A stretch of 26,406 bases of DNA from a virus. The notes beneath the pieces are model-generated. The model did not search any database and was not told the origin of the DNA. It was given only the letters and a program-made list of their open reading frames with translations. The stretch is taken from the IMG/VR virus record IMGVR_UViG_3300009001_000081, positions 1-26,406 of that record; one strand, given 5' to 3'. Below are positions 6,978-26,126 of this stretch, piece by piece. Positions within the stretch are counted from its first letter, which is position 1. Every line of letters starts with the position of its first letter. The translations under genes and the position numbers were made by a program.

Positions 6978-8303
6978 ATGCAAGAGGACTTTAGTAAACA
7001 TAGAAATGAATTTAGAAAAGGCTCTCAATTACGTAAGTTCAACGAGGATCCTACGTATTTGAGCTGGTTTTTTATGTTCGATTATACGTCGCAAGAGTCG
7101 CCCTTGTTTAACGGTGCTGCGAATAACTATTTAGAAAATGTAGTTGGTGGTGATTATGGTAAAGCATTATCAACTAGACTAAGTTCTTTTATTAAACTTT
7201 TTCAAAGAATTAACAAAGAGATGCCATGGTTTTGGCAAAGTTTAGCTGGCATTGAAGCGGCAATGCAATATCAAAACTTAGAAGAGCCTTTTTGGGGAGC
7301 TAACAAGCCTAAATTAGAAATAGAGTGTCTTGAAGAAAACGTAGACTTAACTGCTATTGCATTAATGGATCTTTATAAAAGAGCTATTTTTGATTTTAAC
7401 AGATGGGTAGAAATTGTCCCTAAAAACTTACGTCATTTTAGAATGTATGTGATTGTTTCTGAGATTAGACAATTTCAACAAGATATTGCTGCCAGAAATA
7501 CAGATTCTAGAGGTCGCATAGGTGATCATAATCCAAAGGGTCAAGGCAGTTATGCTTCTCCAGATGATACACCACTTAATACTGAAATGGGTTTAGCGGC
7601 TAAACCATTTGTTAAATTACAATTTGACTTTTGTGAATTTAGCATAGATGACATTAGTGCGATGTTTGCAGATTTAGGTAGAAATCCTGAACTTAAAAAA
7701 CCTAAAATTGGTATTTTTTGGGAATCAGCTAAGCAAGTGGGTCAAAATTTTAATGTTTCAGAAGATGTCTCAACAGAGGGATTAGCGGTACCTGGCAAGA
7801 TTCCAGACTATCAAACTGGTCCATTTGATCCTAAACAAGCAATAAAAGATATTGCTAATAAAAAAGCACAAGAGGTTAAAGATGCCTTTGATGCTAAAAA
7901 GAAGAGCATTCAAAATGCACTTAACCCCCAATCTAATAGTGAAATCGGTAATGTCTTCGGTGGACCTGGACTTTTTGGAGGTGCAGCATCAACCCTTGTT
8001 GGTGGTTTAGCTGATTCAGTTGCAGGCAGACTACTATTAGGTAATGTTCACGGATTGGGCGGTATTGGTTCTATTCAAGATGCTATTCAAGCAGGTAGTA
8101 TTAATGCAGTCGCTAATTTAGCTGGCCAATTATTTGGTCAAAGAAGTAGACCGGGTTCGGGTGACTTGAGCCCTGGTAACATTTACCCTAAAGACAACTT
8201 TGCACTTGACTCATCACCAGATGGCAACATTACACCTAAAAAAGTATATGATCCGATCGCTCCAGATAGAGACGATCCAATAAACGATAACGTACATGAA
8301 TGA
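6978..8303 (+). CDS. Probable tail tube-like/tube-initiator baseplate protein (441 aa)
   Basis: The N-terminal half has segments that read like a phage tail-tube or initiator protein: WFFMFDYTSQESPLFNG, then FIKLFQRINKEMPWFWQSL, then KLEIECLEENVDLTAIALMDLYK, and VPKNLRHFRMYVIVSEIR. A final beta segment (FVKLQFDFCEFSIDDI) lies at about residues 213-230. The C-terminal third is Gly/Ala-rich and amphipathic (about residues 325-390) with a charged, probably disordered end. Such proteins sit between the hub and the tail tube, as T4 gp48 and gp54 do, although no direct T4 homology is obvious to me. The gene lies between the gpD-like hub and the spike and overlaps the spike gene by 8 bp. No enzyme motif is visible. 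Confidence 0.5.
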   Translation: MQEDFSKHRNEFRKGSQLRKFNEDPTYLSWFFMFDYTSQESPLFNGAANNYLENVVGGDYGKALSTRLSSFIKLFQRINKEMPWFWQSLAGIEAAMQYQNLEEPFWGANKPKLEIECLEENVDLTAIALMDLYKRAIFDFNRWVEIVPKNLRHFRMYVIVSEIRQFQQDIAARNTDSRGRIGDHNPKGQGSYASPDDTPLNTEMGLAAKPFVKLQFDFCEFSIDDISAMFADLGRNPELKKPKIGIFWESAKQVGQNFNVSEDVSTEGLAVPGKIPDYQTGPFDPKQAIKDIANKKAQEVKDAFDAKKKSIQNALNPQSNSEIGNVFGGPGLFGGAASTLVGGLADSVAGRLLLGNVHGLGGIGSIQDAIQAGSINAVANLAGQLFGQRSRPGSGDLSPGNIYPKDNFALDSSPDGNITPKKVYDPIAPDRDDPINDNVHE

Positions 8304-9012
8304 TAAAGAACTTTACAAAGACAATCTTAGAGAGACGCATTGGCTTGGTGAGGTCATTATCAACGAAGATCCACTATTAAAAGGTCGATGTAGAGTCAAA
8401 GTATTCGGTAAATTTGACCTTTTACCAGACGATGCAATTCCATGGGCCACTCCAATGAACCGCGATCAAGTTGGTGCACATGCAGTGCCAAGAGTTGGTG
8501 ATATTGTAGCAGTACGCTTTGATAATGGTAACATCTATCACCCTGAATATTGGTTTCAAGTTGATCAAAACAAAGACCTAAAGACAGACATTCTCGAAGC
8601 TTCTGATAAGCCTCACGATGTGATAAGCTTAGTATATGATGCTGAAAGAAATCTTCGCATCTATCACTCGCCAGAAGACGGCTTAGTGATTACGAGAGGC
8701 AGCGGTGCTAAGGAACGTCCAATGATTCAGATTGACGAAGAAGGTTTTATTAAGATAAGCACAGATGCTAAGATGTTCTTAGACTCAGGCGATATATTTG
8801 TCTCAAATACTGGTGAAAGCGGTGCAGATGAAACTGAACCGGCCGTTAGAGGTCAGTCTTTACAAGATTGGTTGCAGGCTTTATTAGATGATTATGTTGC
8901 ACATATTCACCCAACTGGCGTTGGACCTTCTGGTCCTCCGATGCCACCTACAACAACGACTGTTGGTAGGTTATCAAGTACACATATTAACTATCAACAA
9001 AAGAGTAAGTAA
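8296..9012 (+). CDS. 5: Baseplate spike protein, gp5/gpV-like OB-fold (238 aa), no lysozyme domain
   Basis: Residues 14-88 match the N-terminal OB-fold of spike proteins: a strand (THWLGEVIINEDPLLKGRCRVKVFG), then LPDDAIPWATPM, then VPRVGDIVAVRFDNG and HPEYWFQVD. Residues 95-175 look like the start of a beta-helix (MIQIDEEGFIKIS, DSGDIFVS). The end (residues 184-216) has AVRGQSLQDWLQALLDDYVAHIHPTG followed by GPSGPPMPP. The HIH motif resembles metal-binding HxH sites at the tips of P2/Mu-type spikes. T4 gp5 is 575 aa and carries a lysozyme; here that domain is absent, as in P2- and Mu-type spikes. It punctures the outer membrane during contraction, consistent with a Gram-negative host. It overlaps the upstream gene by 8 bp. 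Confidence 0.75.
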   Translation: MNDKELYKDNLRETHWLGEVIINEDPLLKGRCRVKVFGKFDLLPDDAIPWATPMNRDQVGAHAVPRVGDIVAVRFDNGNIYHPEYWFQVDQNKDLKTDILEASDKPHDVISLVYDAERNLRIYHSPEDGLVITRGSGAKERPMIQIDEEGFIKISTDAKMFLDSGDIFVSNTGESGADETEPAVRGQSLQDWLQALLDDYVAHIHPTGVGPSGPPMPPTTTTVGRLSSTHINYQQKSK

Positions 9013-9014
9013 TC

Positions 9015-11000
9015 ATGCCCGTAATTTGGCCAACATTTATATCAGCGGCAGCAAGTACTATCTCTAGTCAACAATTTACAAAACCAGGAGGACTTGCTAC
9101 ACAATCATATGAAGTGCCTAAGGTTGGATCTGATCAAGTTGAAGTCTTTCAGTTTCCACCTAGTAAAGAACATGCAGACGCACTTGCAGAATCAGTAAAA
9201 CCTGGCAATCCAGTAAATGCTAATTTAGCAACAAATCCTACTGATTTTACTAATATTGGAAGTACTAATCTATTAAGCGGTAGATATGATTTTGGTGTAG
9301 CGATAGCACAAGACTATCTTAATGCAGTTAAAAATGCAGCTCAAACTCCAGTTGGTGCATTTCACATTAATAATCCAGCAGCCGAAGAGTTTTTAAAAAA
9401 CGGGTATGGCCTAGTATTTGAGAGGATGTTAAAAGAGGGTGATTTACCCTTAATGGATCAAAAGGATGCAGATGGTAATATTATTTCAATGGGTAAAGAG
9501 TCACATCCAGACTATGCAGATTTACTTTGTCCAGAACCAGTCGAACCACCAGATCCAGTAGAAGAAGAAAAGAAAAGAATTAAGAAATTTAATAAATTTA
9601 TTGAAGATCATAAAAACGATCCTAAATATGGTTTACTTAAGTTTAAGTTTTTTGAGTTTCATTGTTTAGATGGTAACGAATCAAATGATGATATTATAGC
9701 TATATTTGCAAATAGAATTCTACAGAAATTTGATACTATAAGTAATAAAGATAATCAATTTAAGTATCTTAGATGGGCTACTAGTTTGGGTAAACAAAAC
9801 TATAAAGATTTAACAGAGTATGAAATTGCTAGTGCAAATTATAGCTTGAGACAAAGATGGCCATATCCTAATGTTAGAAACGGTGTTATAAACGATATTC
9901 AAAACGCAGGATACAATTGGGAAATTATAGTAGACGGTGTTTCTAGGGTAGTTAAAGAGGCTATGGACACTGTTTTTCCGGCATATGAAGTTATAGAAAA
10001 AGATTGGAGAGGTGATGTTATTTATACATATATTGAACTAGATTTATATAAAAGGGTGTCTAGGGGTAGAAAGGCGGCAACGCCGATGCCAAAACCAAGC
10101 TCTAGTGAAGAAGAATTATGTTCATTAGATCCATATAAAATACAGGTTTCTTATAATAGAGAAAAAGGTACATATGAGTCTATTGGTGACGACGGTCAAC
10201 CTAAAACAGAAATAGTTGAAAGTAAAAGGCCTAAAATATTAACTGATAATGTAGTAACATTTTTTACATATGATGGAGATGCTCAAAAAACGTTTTACAC
10301 ATATGCTACTAATAATGTTGCAAACGGAGAAGAAACTAATGTAATTATTGATAATTATAAAATTATATGGTGGGATAAAGACACGTCTTATGTTGATCTT
10401 AAGTATGTAAAAAATGAATACGAAAATAAATGGTCTAAAATACCACCAGCTGTAAGTAGTATTAGTCCAGATGCTTCTGATCCTGAAGCGGCTTTAAATC
10501 AATTTTTAGCAATAGATCCAAAAACGGGTGGAACACTTTTTAAGTTTCAATATTATCAAACAGAAAAGGCAAAGCAAGAAGCTGAAGAATGTGATGCTAA
10601 TGAACCTGAAAACGATATACCATATAGTTGGCCAGGTGGAGATCCATACGAAGAATTAGCACAAATAACTATCACGTATTGGTATTTGTGTATTGTAAAA
10701 CCATTTCAACCTCTTACTTCAATGCCACCTGCATTAATTCCCCCACCTCTAACTGGTATTTATATACCGATTTATTATGGTGGTAAAAAACGATTAGCTA
10801 ATAACCTAAGAAGGGCTTGGAATACTGGTAAAACATTTAGTCAATTGCCAGTACCTCAACCACCAGCAATTGCAGTGGCAACAGCTCTGTCTTTTGCGTA
10901 TGCAATGCACTTATTAGAGTTTAAATTAATCTATTTAGGTGGTATCCCAACACCAATTGGCCCAGTGCCTATGGTTGGTTTTGTACCCGTCGTGTTCTAA
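9015..11000 (+). CDS. Spike-adjacent virion protein of unknown function with hydrophobic Pro-rich C-terminus (661 aa)
   Basis: I do not recognise a named family. The gene starts 2 bp after the spike gene, so its product is probably made with the hub. Residues 91-145 are helical (GVAIAQDYLNAVKNAAQ, EFLKNGYGLVFERML). Residues 172-200 form a Pro/Glu then Lys linker. Residues 205-350 (WATSLGKQNYKDLTEYEIASA, DWRGDVIYTYIELDLYKR) and 370-520 look like mixed globular domains. Residues 548-661 are strikingly hydrophobic and Pro-rich: ALIPPPLTGIYIPIYYGG, a basic segment (KKRLANNLRRAWNTGK), a helix of about 20 residues (AIAVATALSFAYAMHLLEF) and a final GFVPVVF. This could be a membrane-interacting, hub-plug or ejected protein. 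It also uses many ATA isoleucine codons. Confidence 0.55.
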   Translation: MPVIWPTFISAAASTISSQQFTKPGGLATQSYEVPKVGSDQVEVFQFPPSKEHADALAESVKPGNPVNANLATNPTDFTNIGSTNLLSGRYDFGVAIAQDYLNAVKNAAQTPVGAFHINNPAAEEFLKNGYGLVFERMLKEGDLPLMDQKDADGNIISMGKESHPDYADLLCPEPVEPPDPVEEEKKRIKKFNKFIEDHKNDPKYGLLKFKFFEFHCLDGNESNDDIIAIFANRILQKFDTISNKDNQFKYLRWATSLGKQNYKDLTEYEIASANYSLRQRWPYPNVRNGVINDIQNAGYNWEIIVDGVSRVVKEAMDTVFPAYEVIEKDWRGDVIYTYIELDLYKRVSRGRKAATPMPKPSSSEEELCSLDPYKIQVSYNREKGTYESIGDDGQPKTEIVESKRPKILTDNVVTFFTYDGDAQKTFYTYATNNVANGEETNVIIDNYKIIWWDKDTSYVDLKYVKNEYENKWSKIPPAVSSISPDASDPEAALNQFLAIDPKTGGTLFKFQYYQTEKAKQEAEECDANEPENDIPYSWPGGDPYEELAQITITYWYLCIVKPFQPLTSMPPALIPPPLTGIYIPIYYGGKKRLANNLRRAWNTGKTFSQLPVPQPPAIAVATALSFAYAMHLLEFKLIYLGGIPTPIGPVPMVGFVPVVF

Positions 11001-11010
11001 AAAGTGAAGA

Positions 11011-11020
11011 GATATATATT
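11011..11020 (+). promoter_or_regulatory. Candidate late promoter GATATATATT before the S1-like gene
   Basis: GATATATATT is identical to the element at 2751 and lies 26 bp before the S1-like ATG, in a 46-bp gap. The repetition of the same 10-mer before two separate gene groups is the main support. A distinct start for this gene would let it be controlled apart from the upstream baseplate genes. Confidence 0.5.
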
Positions 11021-11046: not shown

Positions 11047-12360
11047 ATGACTGAAAAAAAGAAAAGAGCTAGAATCGGAGAGGCTACAGCCGAAACTAAA
11101 GAACTCAACATCAAGGTAGAAGAAAGAGTAGCTGAAAATATCGATAACATTGATCAACTAAAAAACAAGGAGGATCAATCTACAACAGATTCAGAATTTT
11201 ACGACGCAGATGGTAACTTTATGTGGGAAGCATATGAAGCAACTTGTCCATCTCACACTAGAAAACCAAATCCACACATTCGTACTAGAAAGGGCGATAA
11301 AGTCTATTCTAGAGAATCTTATGCCCAAGAACTTTATGATATTTACAGCAATGTAGATAACTACGACAATATCAAAACTAAGGTATTGCCAGGTGAAATT
11401 CACGAAGGAACTATTTTTGGTATTAGCACAGAATGGATTAGTGTCGACATTGGTTACAGAGAGCTTGTTTATGTTAAGTACGGTAAAGAAACACCAGAAG
11501 TACAGCAAATGTCTGTTGGTGAAGAGACCGCAGTCTTAATTACTAACGTACAGCCAGGTGAACACATTAGTGGATCTATTAGTGGTGGTGTTAAGCAAAA
11601 GGTATTTATGGATCTTAGAGACGGTGTTGAATCAGGCGATACAGCTTGGGTCGGTCGAGTTTCTCATATGATCGAAAATGGTGGTTACATTGTTAGAATT
11701 CAAGGCATTGATTGCTTTATGCCAGGTTCACTAGCTGGAATTAATAAACTACATGACTTCTCATCTATTGTTGACACTGAGATGTATGTTGTTCCGGTTA
11801 GTTTCTCACCAGAAAGAGGTACATTAGTAGTTTCACACAGAAAGTATTTACAAGCCCTAATTCCAGATGCAATTGAAGATCTTAAACAAAATATCGAAAA
11901 CGAGCAAGTTGGTAATGTAACAGGAACTGCCAAATATGGTGTCTTTGTAGAGTTTAATAAATGTTTGACTGGGATGATTCACTCTAATGACTTAGATCAA
12001 GAAACAATGGCTAAGTTTAAGGCTAGAGAAATTAAACCAGGTGATGAAATTAGATTTAAAGTTAAAGATATTATTAATCACAAAAAGATTACGTTAACTC
12101 AAAAGACTGAAGTTACACATAATCCATGGATGAATATCAACTCTCGCTATCAAATGCCATCTACAGTCTCAGCTAAAGTTAAGACTAAAAAAGATTACGG
12201 TTTATTCATTACGATTGAAGAAGGTGTAACTGGTTTGCTTCATGTAAGTGAACTAGGGGAAGACACAATGTCTGTTTTTAAACCAGGCGATGACATCACT
12301 GTACAAATTACTAGAATTGACGAAGATGCTATGAAGGTATTTCTTAAAATGCCTGAGTAA
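11047..12360 (+). CDS. Ribosomal protein S1-like RNA-binding protein, four S1 repeats (437 aa)
   Basis: Four S1 (OB-fold) repeats are visible. R1 is at about 114-180 (VLPGEIHEGTIFGISTEW, ISVDIGYRELVYV). R2 is at about 197-268 (GDTAWVGRVSHMIENGGYIV, then DTEMYVVPVSFSPERGTLVV). R3 is at about 287-352 (VGNVTGTAKYGVFVEFNKCL, TGMIHSNDL, IKPGDEIRFKVKDI). R4 is at about 371-435 (PSTVSAKVKTKKDYGLFITI, EEGVTGLLHVSEL, FKPGDDITVQITRID). Bacterial S1 normally has six repeats and binds mRNA at the 30S subunit, mattering most for messages without a Shine-Dalgarno sequence. Residues 1-110 are charged and lack a recognised domain; they may replace the ribosome-binding N-terminus. I infer a phage factor that helps translate its A/T-led messages or controls RNA. 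It has its own promoter-like motif and lies among baseplate genes. Confidence 0.85.
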   Translation: MTEKKKRARIGEATAETKELNIKVEERVAENIDNIDQLKNKEDQSTTDSEFYDADGNFMWEAYEATCPSHTRKPNPHIRTRKGDKVYSRESYAQELYDIYSNVDNYDNIKTKVLPGEIHEGTIFGISTEWISVDIGYRELVYVKYGKETPEVQQMSVGEETAVLITNVQPGEHISGSISGGVKQKVFMDLRDGVESGDTAWVGRVSHMIENGGYIVRIQGIDCFMPGSLAGINKLHDFSSIVDTEMYVVPVSFSPERGTLVVSHRKYLQALIPDAIEDLKQNIENEQVGNVTGTAKYGVFVEFNKCLTGMIHSNDLDQETMAKFKAREIKPGDEIRFKVKDIINHKKITLTQKTEVTHNPWMNINSRYQMPSTVSAKVKTKKDYGLFITIEEGVTGLLHVSELGEDTMSVFKPGDDITVQITRIDEDAMKVFLKMPE

Positions 12361-12410: not shown

Positions 12411-13721
12411 ATGCAAAAGCTAAATAAAAATTCTACTAGGGAACAACTCTTGAACTCTGCGCTTGTTGGTGTGGAGTTCGAGTTTTATTCCAACCTAGAG
12501 TTAGAAGAGACCAAAAAGTCATTATCTGAACTTTTGGGAAGAAAGATTCAATTAGAGGATAAAGCTCATTCAGACTTTCAACCTGATGATAAAGTCTTTA
12601 AATTGGAACCTGATATGTCAGGCGGTAAAGGACTCATCGAGCTGGTTACGGGTGCAATGCCTTATAGAAATACCAGGATTGTCATCATTAAGATGCTTAA
12701 TTGGATCAAAGAGAATGGCTATACAAATGATAGAGCCAGTATTCACTTAAATGTTTCATTTGATAATCAGTACTTAGAAGATCCTACAATGATTTCTAAG
12801 ATGAACACTCTAAAATTTATCTTGGAATTTGATGAGGCTAGAATATACAAATTCTTCCCTAATCGTGAAAATTCTACATATGCTAAAAGTATTAAGTGGA
12901 TTATGCCAAAAAGAGAGGCATACTGGTTTGACGAAGATCACATTGAACCTAATAACTTTAAGTTTGCTGACACAAAGTATTACGGCATTAACTTCTCTAA
13001 AAAAGAGAAGAACTATTTAGAGTTTAGATACCTAGGTGGTGAAAATTATCACGAGAAAAAAGAAGCCATTTTGCACCTCTTAGATCGTTTTATTTTACAG
13101 GTTTGGAATTCATGTAATGATCCAAGATTTACGCCTGAAAATAGAATAGAATTAAAAAGAATCTTAAACAAGAATTTACCACTTATTGAGATGCTTAGAG
13201 ACTATAAGAAACTTAATAAGTATTGGCCTAAGATTAATCTTTTAGTAGACCTTCAGGATAATGATCAAATCATTAAAGTACAGTGGGATCGTATTAAAGA
13301 AAGAGTATTAAATCTCATAGTTGACGGATCTTTAGAAGCTGGTACAATTAATTATGACTCTGATTATTCAACAATTCAGGTTAAAGATGGAGTTATGAAC
13401 ACTGCATATAACATCGATGGTTTTGAATTTATAGATTGTGAAATTAGAGGTAATGTAATGAATGCTTCTATTTATGGCGGTACAGTTGAAGGCTCTATGC
13501 TTGTAAGATGTAACATGTATCAAGGCGCTGAAATAAAAGACAGTAAGGTCGAATCGTGCTATGTTCACGGTAGTGTAACTGCAACCAATTGTTTTGTATT
13601 CGGTAGAGATGGCGTCTTTAAAGGCAAAATGGTTGGAGGTATTTATAGAGAAGGTTTCTTAGGCAAAGAGGCGAGAATAGATGATACTACTGAAGTGGTA
13701 GTAAGTAAAAAAATAAAATAA
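12411..13721 (+). CDS. Amidoligase-like enzyme (COOH-NH2 ligase family) with beta-helix-like C-terminus (436 aa)
   Basis: Residues 18-25 (LVGVEFEF) give the paired acidic motif that begins amidoligase_2 and related glutamine-synthetase-fold ligases. Further signature parts follow: EPDMSGGKGLIELVTGAMPY (66-85), with Glu77; then SIHLNVSF, with His112; and YLEFRYLGGENY (203-213), with Glu204 and Arg206. In this family these residues bind Mg-ATP and the carboxylate for making an amide bond. Residues about 310-425 have repeated short beta-strand motifs (NVMNASIYGGTVEGSMLVRC, EIKDSKVESCYVHGS), as in a right-handed beta-helix. The substrate is unknown: a peptide, a phage or host protein, or cell-wall material. 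The gene has its own promoter-like motif and follows the S1-like gene after 50 bp. Confidence is high for the fold, low for substrate. Confidence 0.7.
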   Translation: MQKLNKNSTREQLLNSALVGVEFEFYSNLELEETKKSLSELLGRKIQLEDKAHSDFQPDDKVFKLEPDMSGGKGLIELVTGAMPYRNTRIVIIKMLNWIKENGYTNDRASIHLNVSFDNQYLEDPTMISKMNTLKFILEFDEARIYKFFPNRENSTYAKSIKWIMPKREAYWFDEDHIEPNNFKFADTKYYGINFSKKEKNYLEFRYLGGENYHEKKEAILHLLDRFILQVWNSCNDPRFTPENRIELKRILNKNLPLIEMLRDYKKLNKYWPKINLLVDLQDNDQIIKVQWDRIKERVLNLIVDGSLEAGTINYDSDYSTIQVKDGVMNTAYNIDGFEFIDCEIRGNVMNASIYGGTVEGSMLVRCNMYQGAEIKDSKVESCYVHGSVTATNCFVFGRDGVFKGKMVGGIYREGFLGKEARIDDTTEVVVSKKIK

Positions 13722-13724
13722 AAG

Positions 13725-14567
13725 ATGAGCGAAATTAGAAGCGGTAGCGAAAATAATCTAACTACTCCTAGAGATTTTGGTGAAAACTGTTTGAATGCGT
13801 TTTTAACCGAAATTGGTGATGAGATTACCGGCGCTTGTATGGTCCCTGTTAATTTACCACAAAGAGAGGTTGTTAACATTATTAAAAGAGCTAAAAAATG
13901 GTTCTATAAAAAATATGAGGATTCAGTAAAAGAAAACTATTACCACATTCCAAATAGTGTCTTTAGTAGCGAGTACTTTAAAAATAATCGTACATTAAAC
14001 TTACCTGGCCCCAGTGTTGACGGTGGCGGTGCTGTTTATTCAGTCTATGGTGTTCATGATTTGGCCAGTGGTTGGAATTCGACTGGTATGGGAATGGATA
14101 TGAGATTCCAAGGTGGTGCTGATTTTGCTATTGAAAAAATGTTATTTAGAGGTATGTACGATGGTTCAGGCCCAGCTGAAGCTGCGGAAGAATTACAGTA
14201 CTATGTTCTAAATGCCAGTTTAGCTGATATGTCTAGAATGATTCTTGAAAATCCTATTTCTTATCAATATTCAAGATTAACAGGTGAGCTTAAGTTTATG
14301 GGTGATACACCTAAGGGTGATGTTATTCTAGAGGTTTATGAAACTTTACCAGACTGTGCCCTTTACGATGATGAAATTTTCTTTAGATATATTAGTGCTA
14401 AGATCAAACAGTCATTAGGAGCTAAGCTAGGTATCTTTAAGTTCGCACTACCTGGTAATGTTGAGTTTGATTATGGCGCCATCAAGGATATGGGCGATGA
14501 AGAATTAGCTGCAATTGAGGAAGAAATCAAAGGTGACGAAGGGGTCGATTGGATGTTCCACAGCTAA
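13725..14567 (+). CDS. 13: Neck (head-tail connector) protein, gp13-like (280 aa)
   Basis: The N-terminal region (DFGENCLNAFLTEIGDEITG, VNIIKRAKKWFYKKYEDSV) resembles the helical part of phage adaptor/neck proteins. The C-terminal part is the best clue: IFFRYISAKIKQSLGAKLGI followed by FKFALPGNVEFDYGAIKDMG and EELAAIEEEI. This matches my knowledge of T4-like gp13 proteins, where a helix (AKxLIKxxWGxNLxKF) runs into an LPGGVxF(N/D) strand and an acidic EEI helix. T4 gp13 is about 309 aa, so the length fits. In T4, gp13 and gp14 close the head and join the tail. The middle (SVDGGGAVYSVYGVHDL) is Gly-rich. It starts 3 bp after the amidoligase-like gene and precedes gp25 by 21 bp. Confidence 0.6.
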   Translation: MSEIRSGSENNLTTPRDFGENCLNAFLTEIGDEITGACMVPVNLPQREVVNIIKRAKKWFYKKYEDSVKENYYHIPNSVFSSEYFKNNRTLNLPGPSVDGGGAVYSVYGVHDLASGWNSTGMGMDMRFQGGADFAIEKMLFRGMYDGSGPAEAAEELQYYVLNASLADMSRMILENPISYQYSRLTGELKFMGDTPKGDVILEVYETLPDCALYDDEIFFRYISAKIKQSLGAKLGIFKFALPGNVEFDYGAIKDMGDEELAAIEEEIKGDEGVDWMFHS

Positions 14568-14588: not shown

Positions 14589-14945
14589 ATGGAATTTTAC
14601 ATTAAATACATAGGCGACCCTAACTATCAAACTGATCAAGTTCAAAACAACGGTGAGATAGAGCAGTTAATTACTCAAATTGAGACGACACTGTTTACCG
14701 ATACTGGCGATGTTTTAGGATCACCTGATTTTGGTTGTGCATTAGAAGATATGATTTACGAATTAAATCAAACTGAGTCGGCTATTAAAAATGTAATAGA
14801 TTCTCAAATAAGAAGTTACTGCCCGTTGGCAGGCAAATATAATGTTGTTTCTAAAGTTAGCTTTTTTAAGGGTGAAGTTAGAGACATTGCGTACATAGAT
14901 ATTACAATAGATAGTAAGTATTTAGTACAAATAAATATTAGGTAA
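14589..14945 (+). CDS. 25: Baseplate wedge protein gp25 (118 aa)
   Basis: This is the small, strongly conserved sheath-initiation and wedge protein of contractile tails (gpW/gp25 family, T4 length 132 aa). The pattern is typical: NNGEIEQLITQIETTLFTDTG, GSPDFGCALEDMIYELN, then AIKNVIDSQIRSYCP, and a closing beta-strand section (DIAYIDITIDSKYLVQINI). gp25 nucleates sheath polymerisation and joins gp6 in the inner wedge. It is followed directly by gp6 (one base between the TAA and the ATG), the order seen in many myoviruses. The sequence GATACATATATAAATG runs into the start codon and is a weak relative of the promoter motif, but it leaves no leader. Confidence 0.85.
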   Translation: MEFYIKYIGDPNYQTDQVQNNGEIEQLITQIETTLFTDTGDVLGSPDFGCALEDMIYELNQTESAIKNVIDSQIRSYCPLAGKYNVVSKVSFFKGEVRDIAYIDITIDSKYLVQINIR

Positions 14946-14946
14946 A

Positions 14947-16776
14947 ATGGCTGAATTAAAATTTTTAAGCACACTTAGATCTTCTGCATCTCAAATTAGA
15001 GACGATGCTAGAACCTATATTACTAGGGTCTATAAGCGTGCAAACACACTTTTTACTGAGGCTTCTCCATTTGCTCAAATTCTTTCAGTCTTATCTGAGA
15101 TAGCTGAATTGATTATGTTCTATATCGAAGATGCTACAGTTGAACAAAACATTTATACTGCTCAACAACCCGAGTCTATTTATGGACTTTCGAGATTGAC
15201 TGGTCACGATGCGACTAGAGGCTTTGCAGCGACAGGTGAAATTGAATTTAGATGGAAGCCAGGCGCAGATTTTAGTAAAATCGCAGGTACTGGTTTAACA
15301 ATTGACTCTAGAGCTAAACTTAAGTTTGATGCAAACGGTTTAATGTATACACTACTTACCGATAAAGATAGATTTAGACTAGAAAAAACTAATAAATTAT
15401 CAATTAAAACCGCTATTATTCAAGGTGAATTTGAATCACAAAAGTTTACAGGTTTAGGTACAGCATTACAATCATTTAACGTACAAACTCGAGGCCTTTC
15501 TGATCACAGCAAGGTAAGCGTAAGTGTTAATGGTGAAAAATGGACTAAACACGAATCACTTTATGATTTGCAAAGAAATGAAAAAGGCTACCTACTTAAA
15601 ACAGGTATTTCTGGAGGTTTAGACATTTATTTTGGTAACGAAGCGTTTGGTATGATGCCTCCAAAAGGTTCTGAGATAGAAGTTGAATATGTTAAGCATG
15701 TTGGACCAACTGGTAACTTACCTGATGGTGCAGACTTAACTGTTAAATGGGATGCTGAAGGTGAAGATTCATTGGGCGAAATGCATGATCTTAACCAATT
15801 CTTAGATGTAATCATTACGTCTTCACCAAAAATGGGCGCTGATAAAGAGTCAACTGTCTTTACTAAAGTTATGACTCCACTTGCTAGTAAATCGTTTGTT
15901 TTAGCAACGCCTGATAATTACGAATATTTCCTATCAAGATATGGTTTATTCTCATATATTGATGCATATAATACAACAGATGATCAATACCTAGATGACG
16001 ATAACGTGATCTATATTTTCGCAGTGCCTGATGTTAGAAAGAAATTGGCAAGTGGCCAAGACTATTTCTCAATTCCACAACAAGAAATGTTCTTTGATCA
16101 AAATGAGTATGATAAAATGTACCAAGTACTTCAGGATAGCGGCCAACAAATGGTAACTACTGAAGTTGTTTTTGTTAAACCTCAAATTAGAAAGTACAGC
16201 ATGGATGTAAACATTAGATACTTTGAAGGTTTCACTAAAGAAGAACTTGCAACTGAAATTAGAGAGCGTATCGGTACATATCTATTAAATATTACTAGAA
16301 GAGATAAATTACCAAAATCTGATATTGTGTATATCTTAGAAGAGATTGAAGGTATTGATGCAGTTAACGTTAGATTTATTTCAGAAACTGAAGAGACTGC
16401 TAGAAGACTTGGTTACTTTGAATCTGTAACTACAACTGTGGTACCACAAGAGCCTGTAACTTTGGAAACGGTCGGTAATGGTAAACAAAAATATGTTTTC
16501 TTTAAGCGTATTGAAGAGGTTGAAACGGTGACAGTTGATGAAACAACTATTATTCCAGAAACAGTCAAAGGACTTGATCAATGGGGTGATATTATTATGG
16601 AAAAAGAAGAAGTTGCTGTATTTAGAGGCGGATGGCAAGACAGAGACGGTGATGAAATCGTTGACGATGTATTGATCAACGCTGAAGCTGCATTAAGTAT
16701 TAACTTCGACGGAAATCCTGTGCCTAGAACAATTTACACTAGAGTACAGGCTGGAAATAGAAAAGCACTTAGATAA
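14947..16776 (+). CDS. 6: Baseplate wedge protein gp6/gpJ-like (609 aa)
   Basis: Position directly after gp25, length (T4 gp6 is 660 aa) and pattern identify the gp6/gpJ wedge protein, which forms the ring that holds the wedges together. The N-terminal helices (STLRSSASQIRDDARTYITR, FAQILSVLSEIAELIMFYIE, YTAQQPESIYGLSRLTGHDA) are characteristic. Residues about 90-270 are beta-rich. Residues 395-480 (EVVFVKPQIRKYSMDVNIRY, TREELATEIRERIGTYLLNI-like segment) match the gpJ C-terminal region. The last 120 residues are acidic, with Val/Thr-rich segments and two possible extra beta elements. It ends in an ATAATG overlap with the next gene (last A of TAA shared). Confidence 0.8.
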   Translation: MAELKFLSTLRSSASQIRDDARTYITRVYKRANTLFTEASPFAQILSVLSEIAELIMFYIEDATVEQNIYTAQQPESIYGLSRLTGHDATRGFAATGEIEFRWKPGADFSKIAGTGLTIDSRAKLKFDANGLMYTLLTDKDRFRLEKTNKLSIKTAIIQGEFESQKFTGLGTALQSFNVQTRGLSDHSKVSVSVNGEKWTKHESLYDLQRNEKGYLLKTGISGGLDIYFGNEAFGMMPPKGSEIEVEYVKHVGPTGNLPDGADLTVKWDAEGEDSLGEMHDLNQFLDVIITSSPKMGADKESTVFTKVMTPLASKSFVLATPDNYEYFLSRYGLFSYIDAYNTTDDQYLDDDNVIYIFAVPDVRKKLASGQDYFSIPQQEMFFDQNEYDKMYQVLQDSGQQMVTTEVVFVKPQIRKYSMDVNIRYFEGFTKEELATEIRERIGTYLLNITRRDKLPKSDIVYILEEIEGIDAVNVRFISETEETARRLGYFESVTTTVVPQEPVTLETVGNGKQKYVFFKRIEEVETVTVDETTIIPETVKGLDQWGDIIMEKEEVAVFRGGWQDRDGDEIVDDVLINAEAALSINFDGNPVPRTIYTRVQAGNRKALR

Positions 16777-22337: not shown

Positions 22338-25300
22338 ATGAATACTAATAACTCAATTTCTAATTCGCTCAAGAAGCTTCTTGAAATTAACTCTAACTCA
22401 TTAAAAATTTATGAGAGAATTAATGAAGCTATTACTACGGATTTAAAAGATGTACCATTAGAAGTCATTACTGATGAGGGTACAACTAAGACCGTATATG
22501 TACCTTCTTTTGGGTTTATGAAGCGAGAGCTAGAAAGATTAGACACTAATCTTAAGGCTTTAACAGGATTGGGTAAAGGTAATACTAAGATTAAATTGCC
22601 AGATGGCACATATCAAAATATTGTTACTTCAAGATTAAAAGCTCCAGCAAATGATATTTCGTCTCTAATCAGACCATCTTCATTTACTACTAAGAGCAAC
22701 TATTTCTTTGAAGATTTTTTAAACCCTCTTTTAACTACAACTTTAAACGTTACAGGTCAAATTCCAAATGACACTGAAAGAGTTTTAGTTAAGAGAATTA
22801 TTTTCGATTCTACTAACGTGCCATCAGTTGAGTTCTTTAAGGAAAACTATAAGAACCAAGAAGGTATTGATTACTACACAGCACTTAGAGACATTGCTAA
22901 TAATAACTTAACGTATATCGTTGACGAAGAAGTTAGAGACCTACCATATAGAGTTAATCAATATATTGGTAAGTTTGATGTATTGTCAATTGATTCGGCT
23001 AAAAAAGACGTTATCGTTGAAGGCACAACTGTTAAAAGATCGGTTAAGTTAATCACACTTGACAAACTAACTTACTCTGATAACGATAAAGATCTTGATC
23101 AAACAGAATTGTTAAAAGTTGGTGATGAGTTAATGGTTAACTCTGGCAACAGAAACACTAGATATAAGATTTCTAAAATTGATGGTTCAACTCGTCAAAT
23201 TGAAGTTCAATTAGTAGAGGGTTACGATCCTATTAAGATTGGCACTGACGTACTATCGATTTATAAATATAACACAACTGCGTTAAACATTGAAATTAGT
23301 TTAGGGTTTAACGAGAGAGTCCTCTTATTTGTTAAGGCGATTGATTCAGATTCTGGCATGTTAGCAGAAAATTGGTCACCTGGTATTGGTTTCTATACTA
23401 ACGAAATGATCCTTCTTCAAGAAGATGGTTCAGAGATTAGGTTAGATGACTATTACAAGGACAACGTTGCTGATTTCGGTCAATATATTAAAGCATTAAA
23501 AGAGGACGCTATTCCACCGGCTACGGTTGGTGTAACTCCAGATGCTCCAACACTTGAAGCTTCAAACTTTAAGGTGGTTCAGATCAACTCACACTTAACA
23601 CAAAATGATACTGCTGATAAAATTAAAAAGCTTTCAGCGGATAAGACGACAGTTGAAGAAACAATTAAGAAGCTTGACGATACAATAGCTAAGAAGAGAA
23701 CTGAAATCTCTACTAAGAAGTATGAGTCTGATATTCAAAAAGACAAGGACAAGAGTGAATTAAATGCACTTATCGAGGAAAGAGCTAGTGAAACTAAACT
23801 CTACAACTCACTTGTAAATCAGATTCAATCTTTGGCTTCAGGCACAAACGTTACTAACATTGCACCTAAATATCGCGTTAGAGGTTTTTGGGCCGTTCCA
23901 TCTCCAAAGAAAGTTGCAGACACTACTGATCAACAAGTAGTTCAATTTGCTATTCAATATAGATACTTATCGACGAGTGGTAAGGCAGGCGAAGTTGCTC
24001 AACTACCATTTACAGATGGCACTAGAGAAAAGACTGCGGTCTTCTCAAATTGGAATGAGATTAGAACCAAGGTTAGAGATCGTGCAAGAAATACTGACAC
24101 CGGTAAATTTGAGTGGAAAGAGAGTCTAGTTGAAGATGGTCAAGAGATCAACTTTAACCAATTAGATATTGCTATTAATGAAGGTGAACTAGTTGAAATT
24201 AGAGTTAAGTCAGTTTCAGAAGCTGGTTATCCTGCAAACCCAATCTTTAGTGACTGGTCAGAGCCAATCACAGTTGATTTCCCAGAAGCTGAAATCGATA
24301 CAACGGATCTTGACAATTTGGTAGAGAAAAACTTAGCTGAAGTTGCAGCCGTTAAAATCTCAGACGAATTGACAGCAAGAGGTGTTTACACTCACGTTGA
24401 TGAAAGCTTTACAGCTAACGAAACATATTATGCTCACACTGCAACTAACATTGCATCGGGCTTTCTTTCACCAGAACAAAAACCAGTTTCTGTCTTTGAC
24501 AAATTGACTGAACTTGAAAATCAGATTAGAGCTCTTAAAGAGGGTATTGAAGCTGAAGTTGGTGAATTGGTAGTTAAGCTTCAAGCAGAAGATGGTACAG
24601 TAACAATCGTTAAGAACAATACAGTTAATCAGATTTTTGCTGGTTACTATGTTGATGAGGTAGCTGAACTTTCTGTTAAGAAAGGACACATCGTTACTAA
24701 GACATTTAAACTACTTTTAGAAAACACTAAAGCAACTCAACTTGAACTTGTATCTAGATTGACTGGTGATAGAAACCAGCCAGCATACAAGTCTTCAAAC
24801 GCGGCTTCGACTATTACAACAAATGGCTTTGGTACATTAACAAATGATCAAGGTACTACTGCAATTGATACTAAAGTTGAGTCTGATACTTATTACACAA
24901 CGGAAGGTAAATACGATTTGGCACCGATTCAGTTCCAAAACATTTCATCTACTGAAATTTCAACATATGATTTATTAGAAGATGCGCCATATCAATCTGC
25001 TCAAAGACGTGGACAATTTGTCTACTCGAGATATATGGACATTGCTAATCAAAATCCACACTATATTACTTCGCCATTAACTGCGGGTACGGCGACTCTT
25101 AATAGTTATGAGTACACTTTAAGTTATGCTTCTTTTGAAGGTACAGCTGGTAATATATCATTGATTCAAGGAAGTGGAGATGGAAACTCTAGTGATTTTA
25201 TTTGGACCGGTACTTTTGGTAAGAACCAAAATGTAACTAGTTGGATTACTCCAGATCTTACTCAAAGATTTGATGCTTCTATGATCGACGTGTGTTCTAT

Positions 25301-26126
25301 TAGCACAATTGGTGCTGCAAACTATAATAGTGGATTGTATTTCCATAAAGATCACCCGGATTTAGAAAACATTTATGCTGGTTGGACTAGTGATGAAGAT
25401 GGTAACAGCACGGTTTCAAACCCAGCTGCGGTTACAGATTCTGAACAACAAACAAGCTTACAAGCGCTAATCAACAATGCTGGTTATAGTATGCCAATCA
25501 CAGCAACTCTTGTTACTGGCACTTCGTTTAGAACTGCAAGTAACGCAGTCTTTGGATCATCAGCAGTTGATGCAGATCCTGTTAAATCTAAGCAACAATT
25601 AGCATATCAATACACTGATTTAATTGCAGCGGGTGCACGTTCATTCAAGATGAGCTTTGATGCTAACGATCAATACCTATTAGGTGGTAGATCATGTGGA
25701 GCCTTCTTATACTTGTCTCCTATTAATTTAACGACACTTTCAGTTGATGGTGAAACTAAGCAATCAAGAAAGCAAGTTAAAGGCAGAGACAACTCAACAT
25801 TAGGCAACTCAAATGCTTTATCACTTGACGTTGTATTCCAATATAGAATGACTGATTACTTCGGTAACGACGCTTCGTCTGATATTGGTAGAATTGGTGG
25901 TCAAGCTAAATTAAGTTTCCCTAACTTAACGTATACTAAAAAGATTGGTCTAGATATTTTTGACAAATATGATACTCAATTCTCGTTTGATCTAGAAGTC
26001 TTCGCTAAATACAGTCCTAAGGGTAAAAACTTAAATTCTATTAGAGCGGCTCAATTAGTAAGAAATGTGCCTACATCTACAAACTTAGCATCTAAGCCTA
26101 GACTGTTCCAATTTGAATCACGCTAA
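22338..26126 (+). CDS. Large tail/baseplate appendage protein with coiled coil and FN3-like domain (1262 aa)
   Basis: This is the largest gene in the window and starts 1 base after the previous stop. Residues 1-80 are helical (SLKKLLEINSNSLKIYERIN, FGFMKRELERLDTNLKALTG), probably for docking. Residues 120-400 are beta-rich. Residues about 422-500 form a Lys/Glu/Asp-rich coiled coil (KIKKLSADKTTVEETIKKLD). Residues about 510-648 resemble a fibronectin type III domain (YRVRGFWAVPSPKK; QFAIQYRYLSTSGKA; VEIRVKSVSEAGYP; FSDWSEPITVDF). A second short coiled coil lies at about 715-740. The C-terminal 450 residues are Ser/Thr/Asn-rich beta structure. The architecture fits a long virion appendage or baseplate-peripheral protein. 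It might be the analogue of T4 gp10/gp12 or a fibre hinge, but the sequence does not settle which. Confidence 0.5.
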   Translation: MNTNNSISNSLKKLLEINSNSLKIYERINEAITTDLKDVPLEVITDEGTTKTVYVPSFGFMKRELERLDTNLKALTGLGKGNTKIKLPDGTYQNIVTSRLKAPANDISSLIRPSSFTTKSNYFFEDFLNPLLTTTLNVTGQIPNDTERVLVKRIIFDSTNVPSVEFFKENYKNQEGIDYYTALRDIANNNLTYIVDEEVRDLPYRVNQYIGKFDVLSIDSAKKDVIVEGTTVKRSVKLITLDKLTYSDNDKDLDQTELLKVGDELMVNSGNRNTRYKISKIDGSTRQIEVQLVEGYDPIKIGTDVLSIYKYNTTALNIEISLGFNERVLLFVKAIDSDSGMLAENWSPGIGFYTNEMILLQEDGSEIRLDDYYKDNVADFGQYIKALKEDAIPPATVGVTPDAPTLEASNFKVVQINSHLTQNDTADKIKKLSADKTTVEETIKKLDDTIAKKRTEISTKKYESDIQKDKDKSELNALIEERASETKLYNSLVNQIQSLASGTNVTNIAPKYRVRGFWAVPSPKKVADTTDQQVVQFAIQYRYLSTSGKAGEVAQLPFTDGTREKTAVFSNWNEIRTKVRDRARNTDTGKFEWKESLVEDGQEINFNQLDIAINEGELVEIRVKSVSEAGYPANPIFSDWSEPITVDFPEAEIDTTDLDNLVEKNLAEVAAVKISDELTARGVYTHVDESFTANETYYAHTATNIASGFLSPEQKPVSVFDKLTELENQIRALKEGIEAEVGELVVKLQAEDGTVTIVKNNTVNQIFAGYYVDEVAELSVKKGHIVTKTFKLLLENTKATQLELVSRLTGDRNQPAYKSSNAASTITTNGFGTLTNDQGTTAIDTKVESDTYYTTEGKYDLAPIQFQNISSTEISTYDLLEDAPYQSAQRRGQFVYSRYMDIANQNPHYITSPLTAGTATLNSYEYTLSYASFEGTAGNISLIQGSGDGNSSDFIWTGTFGKNQNVTSWITPDLTQRFDASMIDVCSISTIGAANYNSGLYFHKDHPDLENIYAGWTSDEDGNSTVSNPAAVTDSEQQTSLQALINNAGYSMPITATLVTGTSFRTASNAVFGSSAVDADPVKSKQQLAYQYTDLIAAGARSFKMSFDANDQYLLGGRSCGAFLYLSPINLTTLSVDGETKQSRKQVKGRDNSTLGNSNALSLDVVFQYRMTDYFGNDASSDIGRIGGQAKLSFPNLTYTKKIGLDIFDKYDTQFSFDLEVFAKYSPKGKNLNSIRAAQLVRNVPTSTNLASKPRLFQFESR

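Follow-up and report, generated by a model that had tools for sequence, protein, structure and literature searches.

Ribosomal protein S1 in huge phages, and its link to missing Shine-Dalgarno (SD) sites, was published in 2020 by Al-Shayeb et al., who proposed a role for the protein from its domain content and the SD correlation (PMC7162821). Late expression together with the structural genes has been measured for another phage-encoded ribosomal protein, the bS21 of Bacteroidota phages (PMC9723584), and the jumbo cyanophage PhiMa05 encodes a bS1. In E. coli, domains 5 and 6 of S1 are dispensable and domains 1–3 are enough for 30S binding (PMC3858243). The contacts of E. coli bS1 with uS2 are Phe5, Gln7, Phe9, Glu10, Lys43 and Phe79, of which Lys43 goes into the uS2 zinc pocket, and its mRNA patch comprises Lys117, Phe120 and Phe130 (D'Urso et al., 2023, PMC10123108). 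Bacteroidota initiate translation without SD pairing, with bS1 as the suspected reader of A-rich leaders; in F. johnsoniae this A-rich leader region is the suspected bS1 site (PMC6847099), and addition of host bS1 affected one mRNA little and another about twofold (PMC9976891).

Here we describe an S1-like gene in a 26.4 kb virus record, a fragment (IMG/VR record IMGVR_UViG_3300009001_000081, 26,406 nucleotides, called the window below). It resembles the huge-phage S1 of 2020 in family, in having relatives in large phages, in the lack of SD and in having several S1 domains (PMC7162821). With Bacteroidota bS1 (rpsA) it shares domains 1–4, an FxWDAYE N-terminal motif and a basic uS2-contact residue, but it has no domains 5–6, is very divergent, scores below the rpsA cut-off and has about 20 additional residues separating the FxW motif from the helix that follows. 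Like the bS21 of Bacteroidota phages, it is a phage-encoded ribosomal protein, lies near structural genes and would sit at the same 30S site; the two proteins are nevertheless different, and late expression was measured for bS21 (PMC9723584) whereas for S1 we infer it. The PhiMa05 protein is likewise a phage-encoded bS1, but it groups with Vampirovibrio host-type genes, that is, a capture from another host line (PMC13157829; compared by description). The initial annotation of the window held that S1 itself, in a late phage setting, was what stood out, a point already published in 2020 (PMC7162821). Of its interpretation as a whole, the S1-like phage gene and the late cluster stand, while the emphasis on S1 itself, the SD reasoning and a wholly unrecognised N-terminus are not supported in the form given. 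The gene and its parts are as follows.

11047..12360, + strand: phage S1-like gene, 437 aa, ATG start
11212..11355, + strand: N-terminal segment, codons ~56–103, with a GNFMWEAYE motif and a helix (93–103) in ESYAQELYD, resembling the N-terminus of Bacteroidia bS1
11380..11586, + strand: S1 domain 1, residues 112–180
11632..11850, + strand: S1 domain 2, residues 196–268
11899..12105, + strand: S1 domain 3, residues 285–353
12148..12348, + strand: S1 domain 4, residues 368–434

The four S1 repeats initially noticed in the 437-aa protein were all recovered by bS1 alignment, NCBIfam and AlphaFold2. The Pfam S1 family (PF00575) matched with an E-value of 8.3e-21, two repeats being significant by themselves, and the best of the NCBIfam S1 models reached 4e-45. 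According to phmmer, residues 112–434 are colinear with residues 17–345 of E. coli bS1 (E 2.8e-39). Structure prediction gave the same picture as the profile search: the AlphaFold2 model, built on a 69-row alignment, contains four OB barrels with a mean pLDDT of 86.9. When this model was searched with Foldseek and VIA-align, the top solved structures were bS1, 30S-bound bS1 included; the comparison covered residues 94–437, which aligned onto bS1 1–348 with a Z-score of 15.3. Our results confirmed that the four S1 OB-folds of the phage protein match cellular bS1 domains 1–4 in order. Compared with the bS1 repeats, domains 1–4 are retained and domains 5–6 are absent, the chain stopping after domain 4; the S1 of Lak phages seems to keep three domains, ending after the third. 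Since E. coli S1 can dispense with domains 5–6 and binds 30S with domains 1–3 alone, the phage protein corresponds to a minimal functional set. We do not claim membership of cellular rpsA, because the protein scored 142.8 bits against the cut-off of 577 bits of the curated rpsA equivalog TIGR00717, which 20 of 61 sampled genuine bS1 from the phylum Bacteroidota also miss, and because it does not have the six-domain bS1 architecture seen in Bacteroidota hosts. A PHROGs search with the S1 protein returned no family at E 0.1.

Conservation was analysed in 69 diverse relatives, kept below about 82% identity. Arg138, in domain 1, occupies the position of E. coli Lys43 and is a lysine or arginine in all 69, in a domain whose mean conservation of physico-chemical class is 60%. 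In domain 2, Tyr214 and Phe224 correspond to E. coli Phe120 and Phe130, and both positions are aromatic in 69/69. Domain 3, in which Phe300 is invariant (69/69) and His312 is found in 67/69, forms together with domain 2 the most conserved part of the phage S1.

The first 110 residues had been described as having no recognised domain. A recognisable bS1-type segment nevertheless lies at ~56–103, and AlphaFold2 gave low confidence only for residues 1 to ~50. At the equivalent place Bacteroidia bS1 has FDWDAYE or FNWHNF, and an F-x-W within the first 150 residues was found in 95 of 132 sampled Bacteroidia bS1; the E. coli protein starts with MTESFAQLFEE. The pattern F.W[DE]A[YF]E arose once in 200,000 shuffles and is present in 64 of 97 phage relatives. 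Against a profile of 95 Bacteroidia bS1 N-termini, 7 of 69 phage relatives outscored all 20,000 shuffles; the window's own N-terminus gave a weak 6.3–6.6 bits, inside the shuffle range. Since this single-sequence score is not significant, the case for the N-terminus rests on the family. A global profile alignment paired the phage and Bacteroidia N-terminal motifs, and the combination of the FxW motif with an ESYAQ-type helix occurs in the window's lineage and in Lak phages, not in other huge-phage lineages. The short N-terminal segment is probably homologous to that of Bacteroidia bS1, a resemblance that points to a putative Bacteroidia host or source.

The S1 gene had been placed within a baseplate cluster, and the genes that flank it bear this out: a gpV-like gene, a gp25-like gene (weak matches) and a wedge/J gene.

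8296..9012, + strand: gpV/gp5-like baseplate hub OB protein
9015..11000, + strand: variable 661-aa protein directly upstream of S1
12411..13721, + strand: amidoligase-like gene (PF12224, E 2e-5)
13725..14567, + strand: hit in the C-terminal region of phrog_211, a family annotated as head-tail adaptor
14589..14945, + strand: gp25-like baseplate wedge protein (weak matches)
14947..16776, + strand: baseplate wedge / baseplate J protein

The amidoligase-like gene is the next set gene after S1 throughout the lineage, although an extra gene may sit between the two; in other huge phages its homolog is placed elsewhere in the genome. In five relatives (L011, L013, L016, L017 and L020), about 2 kb of additional sequence separates S1 from the variable 661-aa gene, and the slot directly upstream of S1 gives the impression of a turnover hot spot for genes. 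At 22338–26126 the window encodes a 1262-aa protein (phrog_29329) that is conserved in Bacteroidota jumbo phages and whose homolog lies directly upstream of S1 in phages of 635–642 kb.

A search of virus databases for the same gene order, suggested at the outset, found 19 contigs in a first scan and then well over 100 separate contigs that share the S1 gene order. Among the same-order relatives, L305 is 256 kb long and L231 is 429 kb. Among loci found via the amidoligase-like gene, S1 was present, in the same slot, in 70 of 70 that could be tested, five more being cut by contig ends, and eight large relatives searched whole had one S1 copy each. Profile scans with S1 retrieved at least 591 and at least 514 relatives. 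The S1 gene belongs to one divergent phage clade of at least about 590 IMG/VR stretches. Membership of the huge-phage family was assessed by tblastn and profile matches plus a tree, in which the S1s of huge phages of 462–735 kb, those of Lak phages and that of the window form one clade with a support of 100/100, parted from bacterial bS1 by a very long branch. The phage S1 is therefore not a recent capture; owing to the same long branch, the tree gave no placement within Bacteroidota. In another huge-phage lineage, S1 adjoins a large conserved virion-type gene, homologous to the last long gene in the window. These data support the window S1 as a phage-encoded member of the huge-phage S1-like family. 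One S1 hit was set aside, in a record labelled Acinetobacter phage MD-2021a (L235, CAKLQH020000011.1) whose gene order in that stretch is bacterial (cmk, rpsA, himD, pyrF), and short S1 records from Listeria, Enterococcus and faecal material were taken, without a full check, as likely bacterial fragments.

Among cultured phages, those whose virion genes come closest infect Tenacibaculum, Chryseobacterium and Flavobacterium; further matches were to PAU, for which Sphingomonas is the recorded host, and, more weakly, to a few Rhizobium phages. An SD-like 4-mer was found upstream of none of 23 window genes, of 5% of genes in PTm1 and 0% in MA9V-1, compared with 72% in E. coli, and the Bacteroidota phages tested have in common an A-rich stretch at −14 to −11. 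PTm1, pT24, MA9V-1, MaF61 and PAU were searched, and neither S1 nor bS21 was found in them. As PTm1 and MA9V-1 have no S1 and are also without SD, the lack of SD does not explain S1, and we rejected SD compensation as the sole cause of the phage gene. The initial argument that S1 helps because phage messages lack SD thus keeps its premise, the lack being real, and loses its conclusion. The lack of SD would be a trait of the host phylum, and the SD–S1 correlation reported in 2020 is probably an effect of that phylum.

Short motifs precede the S1 gene and its neighbour.

11011..11020, + strand: GATATATATT, promoter-like motif in front of the S1 gene
12376: GATATATAAT, motif of the amidoligase-like gene

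The GATATATA(A/T) motif stands before ORFs at window positions 2751, 11011, 12376 and 26152. Of 212 GATATATA(A/T)(A/T) sites counted in the window together with its close relatives, 208 lie no more than 60 nt before an ORF; this figure, like all leader statistics here, is approximate since the first ATG was taken as the start codon in relatives. In each of four large contigs, the GATATATA(A/T)T sites, 48 in all, were on one strand, and the reversed-pattern control gave few sites. The S1 leader GATATATAATATGTTACAC..TTTAATATAAAAATAAATG is kept in many relatives, even with a different upstream gene. We opened 14 motif sites in one 150 kb relative and found portal, prohead protease, neck and tail sheath genes downstream, as well as genes for a tail-fibre-like protein, the amidoligase-like protein and one ribonucleotide reductase. 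The ribonucleotide reductase site suggests that use of the motif may extend beyond late genes. The GATATATA(A/T)T motif is promoter-like, probably a (late) phage promoter class of the window's lineage, and that S1 has its own copy of a motif common to virion genes points to probable late expression. In a relative, the tail-fibre-like protein encoded at L426:76–1731 contains collagen repeats and gives a weak match to intein/Hint.

Taken from sequence and predicted structure, the putative features of the phage S1 support a fit with mRNA loading on the host 30S, and the protein is probably a late, minimal S1 acting on the host 30S in a Bacteroidota host. Late in infection the N-terminal helix and domain 1 would dock the protein onto uS2 of the host 30S, beside or replacing host bS1. 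Domains 2–4 would then bind late phage messages by their A-rich leaders, which lack SD, and keep these leaders at the exit channel, and the rate of late-mRNA initiation would rise when the demand for virion proteins is very large. Against this minimal-S1 reading count the score below the rpsA cut-off, the FxW motif and ESYAQ-type helix not seen in other huge-phage lineages, the ribonucleotide reductase site, the effect of added host bS1 on two F. johnsoniae mRNAs, little for one and about twofold for the other (PMC9976891), and the very long branch, which allows a changed function. A rival reading is a decoy or shut-off, with uS2 or host mRNAs taken up by the short S1, host bS1 blocked and host translation lowered rather than phage translation raised. 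The strong divergence from host bS1 and a uS2-contact residue kept although domains 5–6 are missing are in its favour, but a plug would not be expected to have its RNA-binding domain 3 among its most conserved parts, the late-type promoter motif suits production more than early shut-off, and E. coli bS1 without domains 5–6 still functions (PMC3858243); we consider such a decoy unlikely.

The fixed position of the gene in the baseplate cluster, and its place beside a large conserved virion-type gene in the other lineage too, would also suit OB-folds recruited to the baseplate or packaged, with no ribosome action in the producing cell. We regard a virion component as very improbable, given that residues contacting ribosome and RNA are strictly kept and that cultured phages of Bacteroidota, though related in their baseplate genes, make tails without S1. 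S1 domains bind mRNA, and host S1 activates T4 RegB, a precedent for a phage S1 that would partner a nuclease of the phage or shield late mRNA. Such a role would not need the conserved uS2-contact residue, however, and the S1 neighbours searched yielded no recognisable nuclease gene; we give a part in RNA stability, and with it the action with a nuclease proposed initially, a small chance. As to a host gene assembled into the contig, the case named at the outset as one that would undo the reading, synteny and tree rule it out: despite the N-terminal kinship with Bacteroidia bS1, the gene order is identical in well over 100 contigs and the phage S1s form their fully supported clade on its long branch, so that misassembly or recent capture has a practically negligible probability.

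In a late, minimal S1 that acts on the host 30S, the kept ribosome-gripping residues and the switch motif of the particle genes would mean that the phage protein probably helps the late takeover of protein production. Beyond the 2020 description (PMC7162821), our analysis adds the match to bS1 domains, the conservation of the uS2 contact (K/R at the Lys43 position) and of RNA-facing aromatics, the Bacteroidia-type N-terminus, the baseplate locus and the gene's own promoter-like motif; it also finds the SD correlation confounded by host phylum, the lack of SD not explaining S1. For the role of the phage S1, the argument from the SD correlation gives way to specific marks of ribosome function that can be tested: a basic residue kept throughout, an N-terminus of host type and a promoter motif common to virion genes. 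Of 16 large contigs with S1, 8 (L320–L325 among them) also had a bS21 gene, as did 4 of 7 public records of huge phages. It is conceivable, though doubtful, that the phage S1 and, in many lineages, a phage bS21 remodel the site where mRNA leaves the host 30S late in infection; if true, the two would make a virus-specialised ribosome that favours A-rich, SD-less phage late messages over those of the host. A naturally minimal, four-domain S1 could also help to probe how bS1 reads the A-rich leaders of Bacteroidota (PMC6847099).
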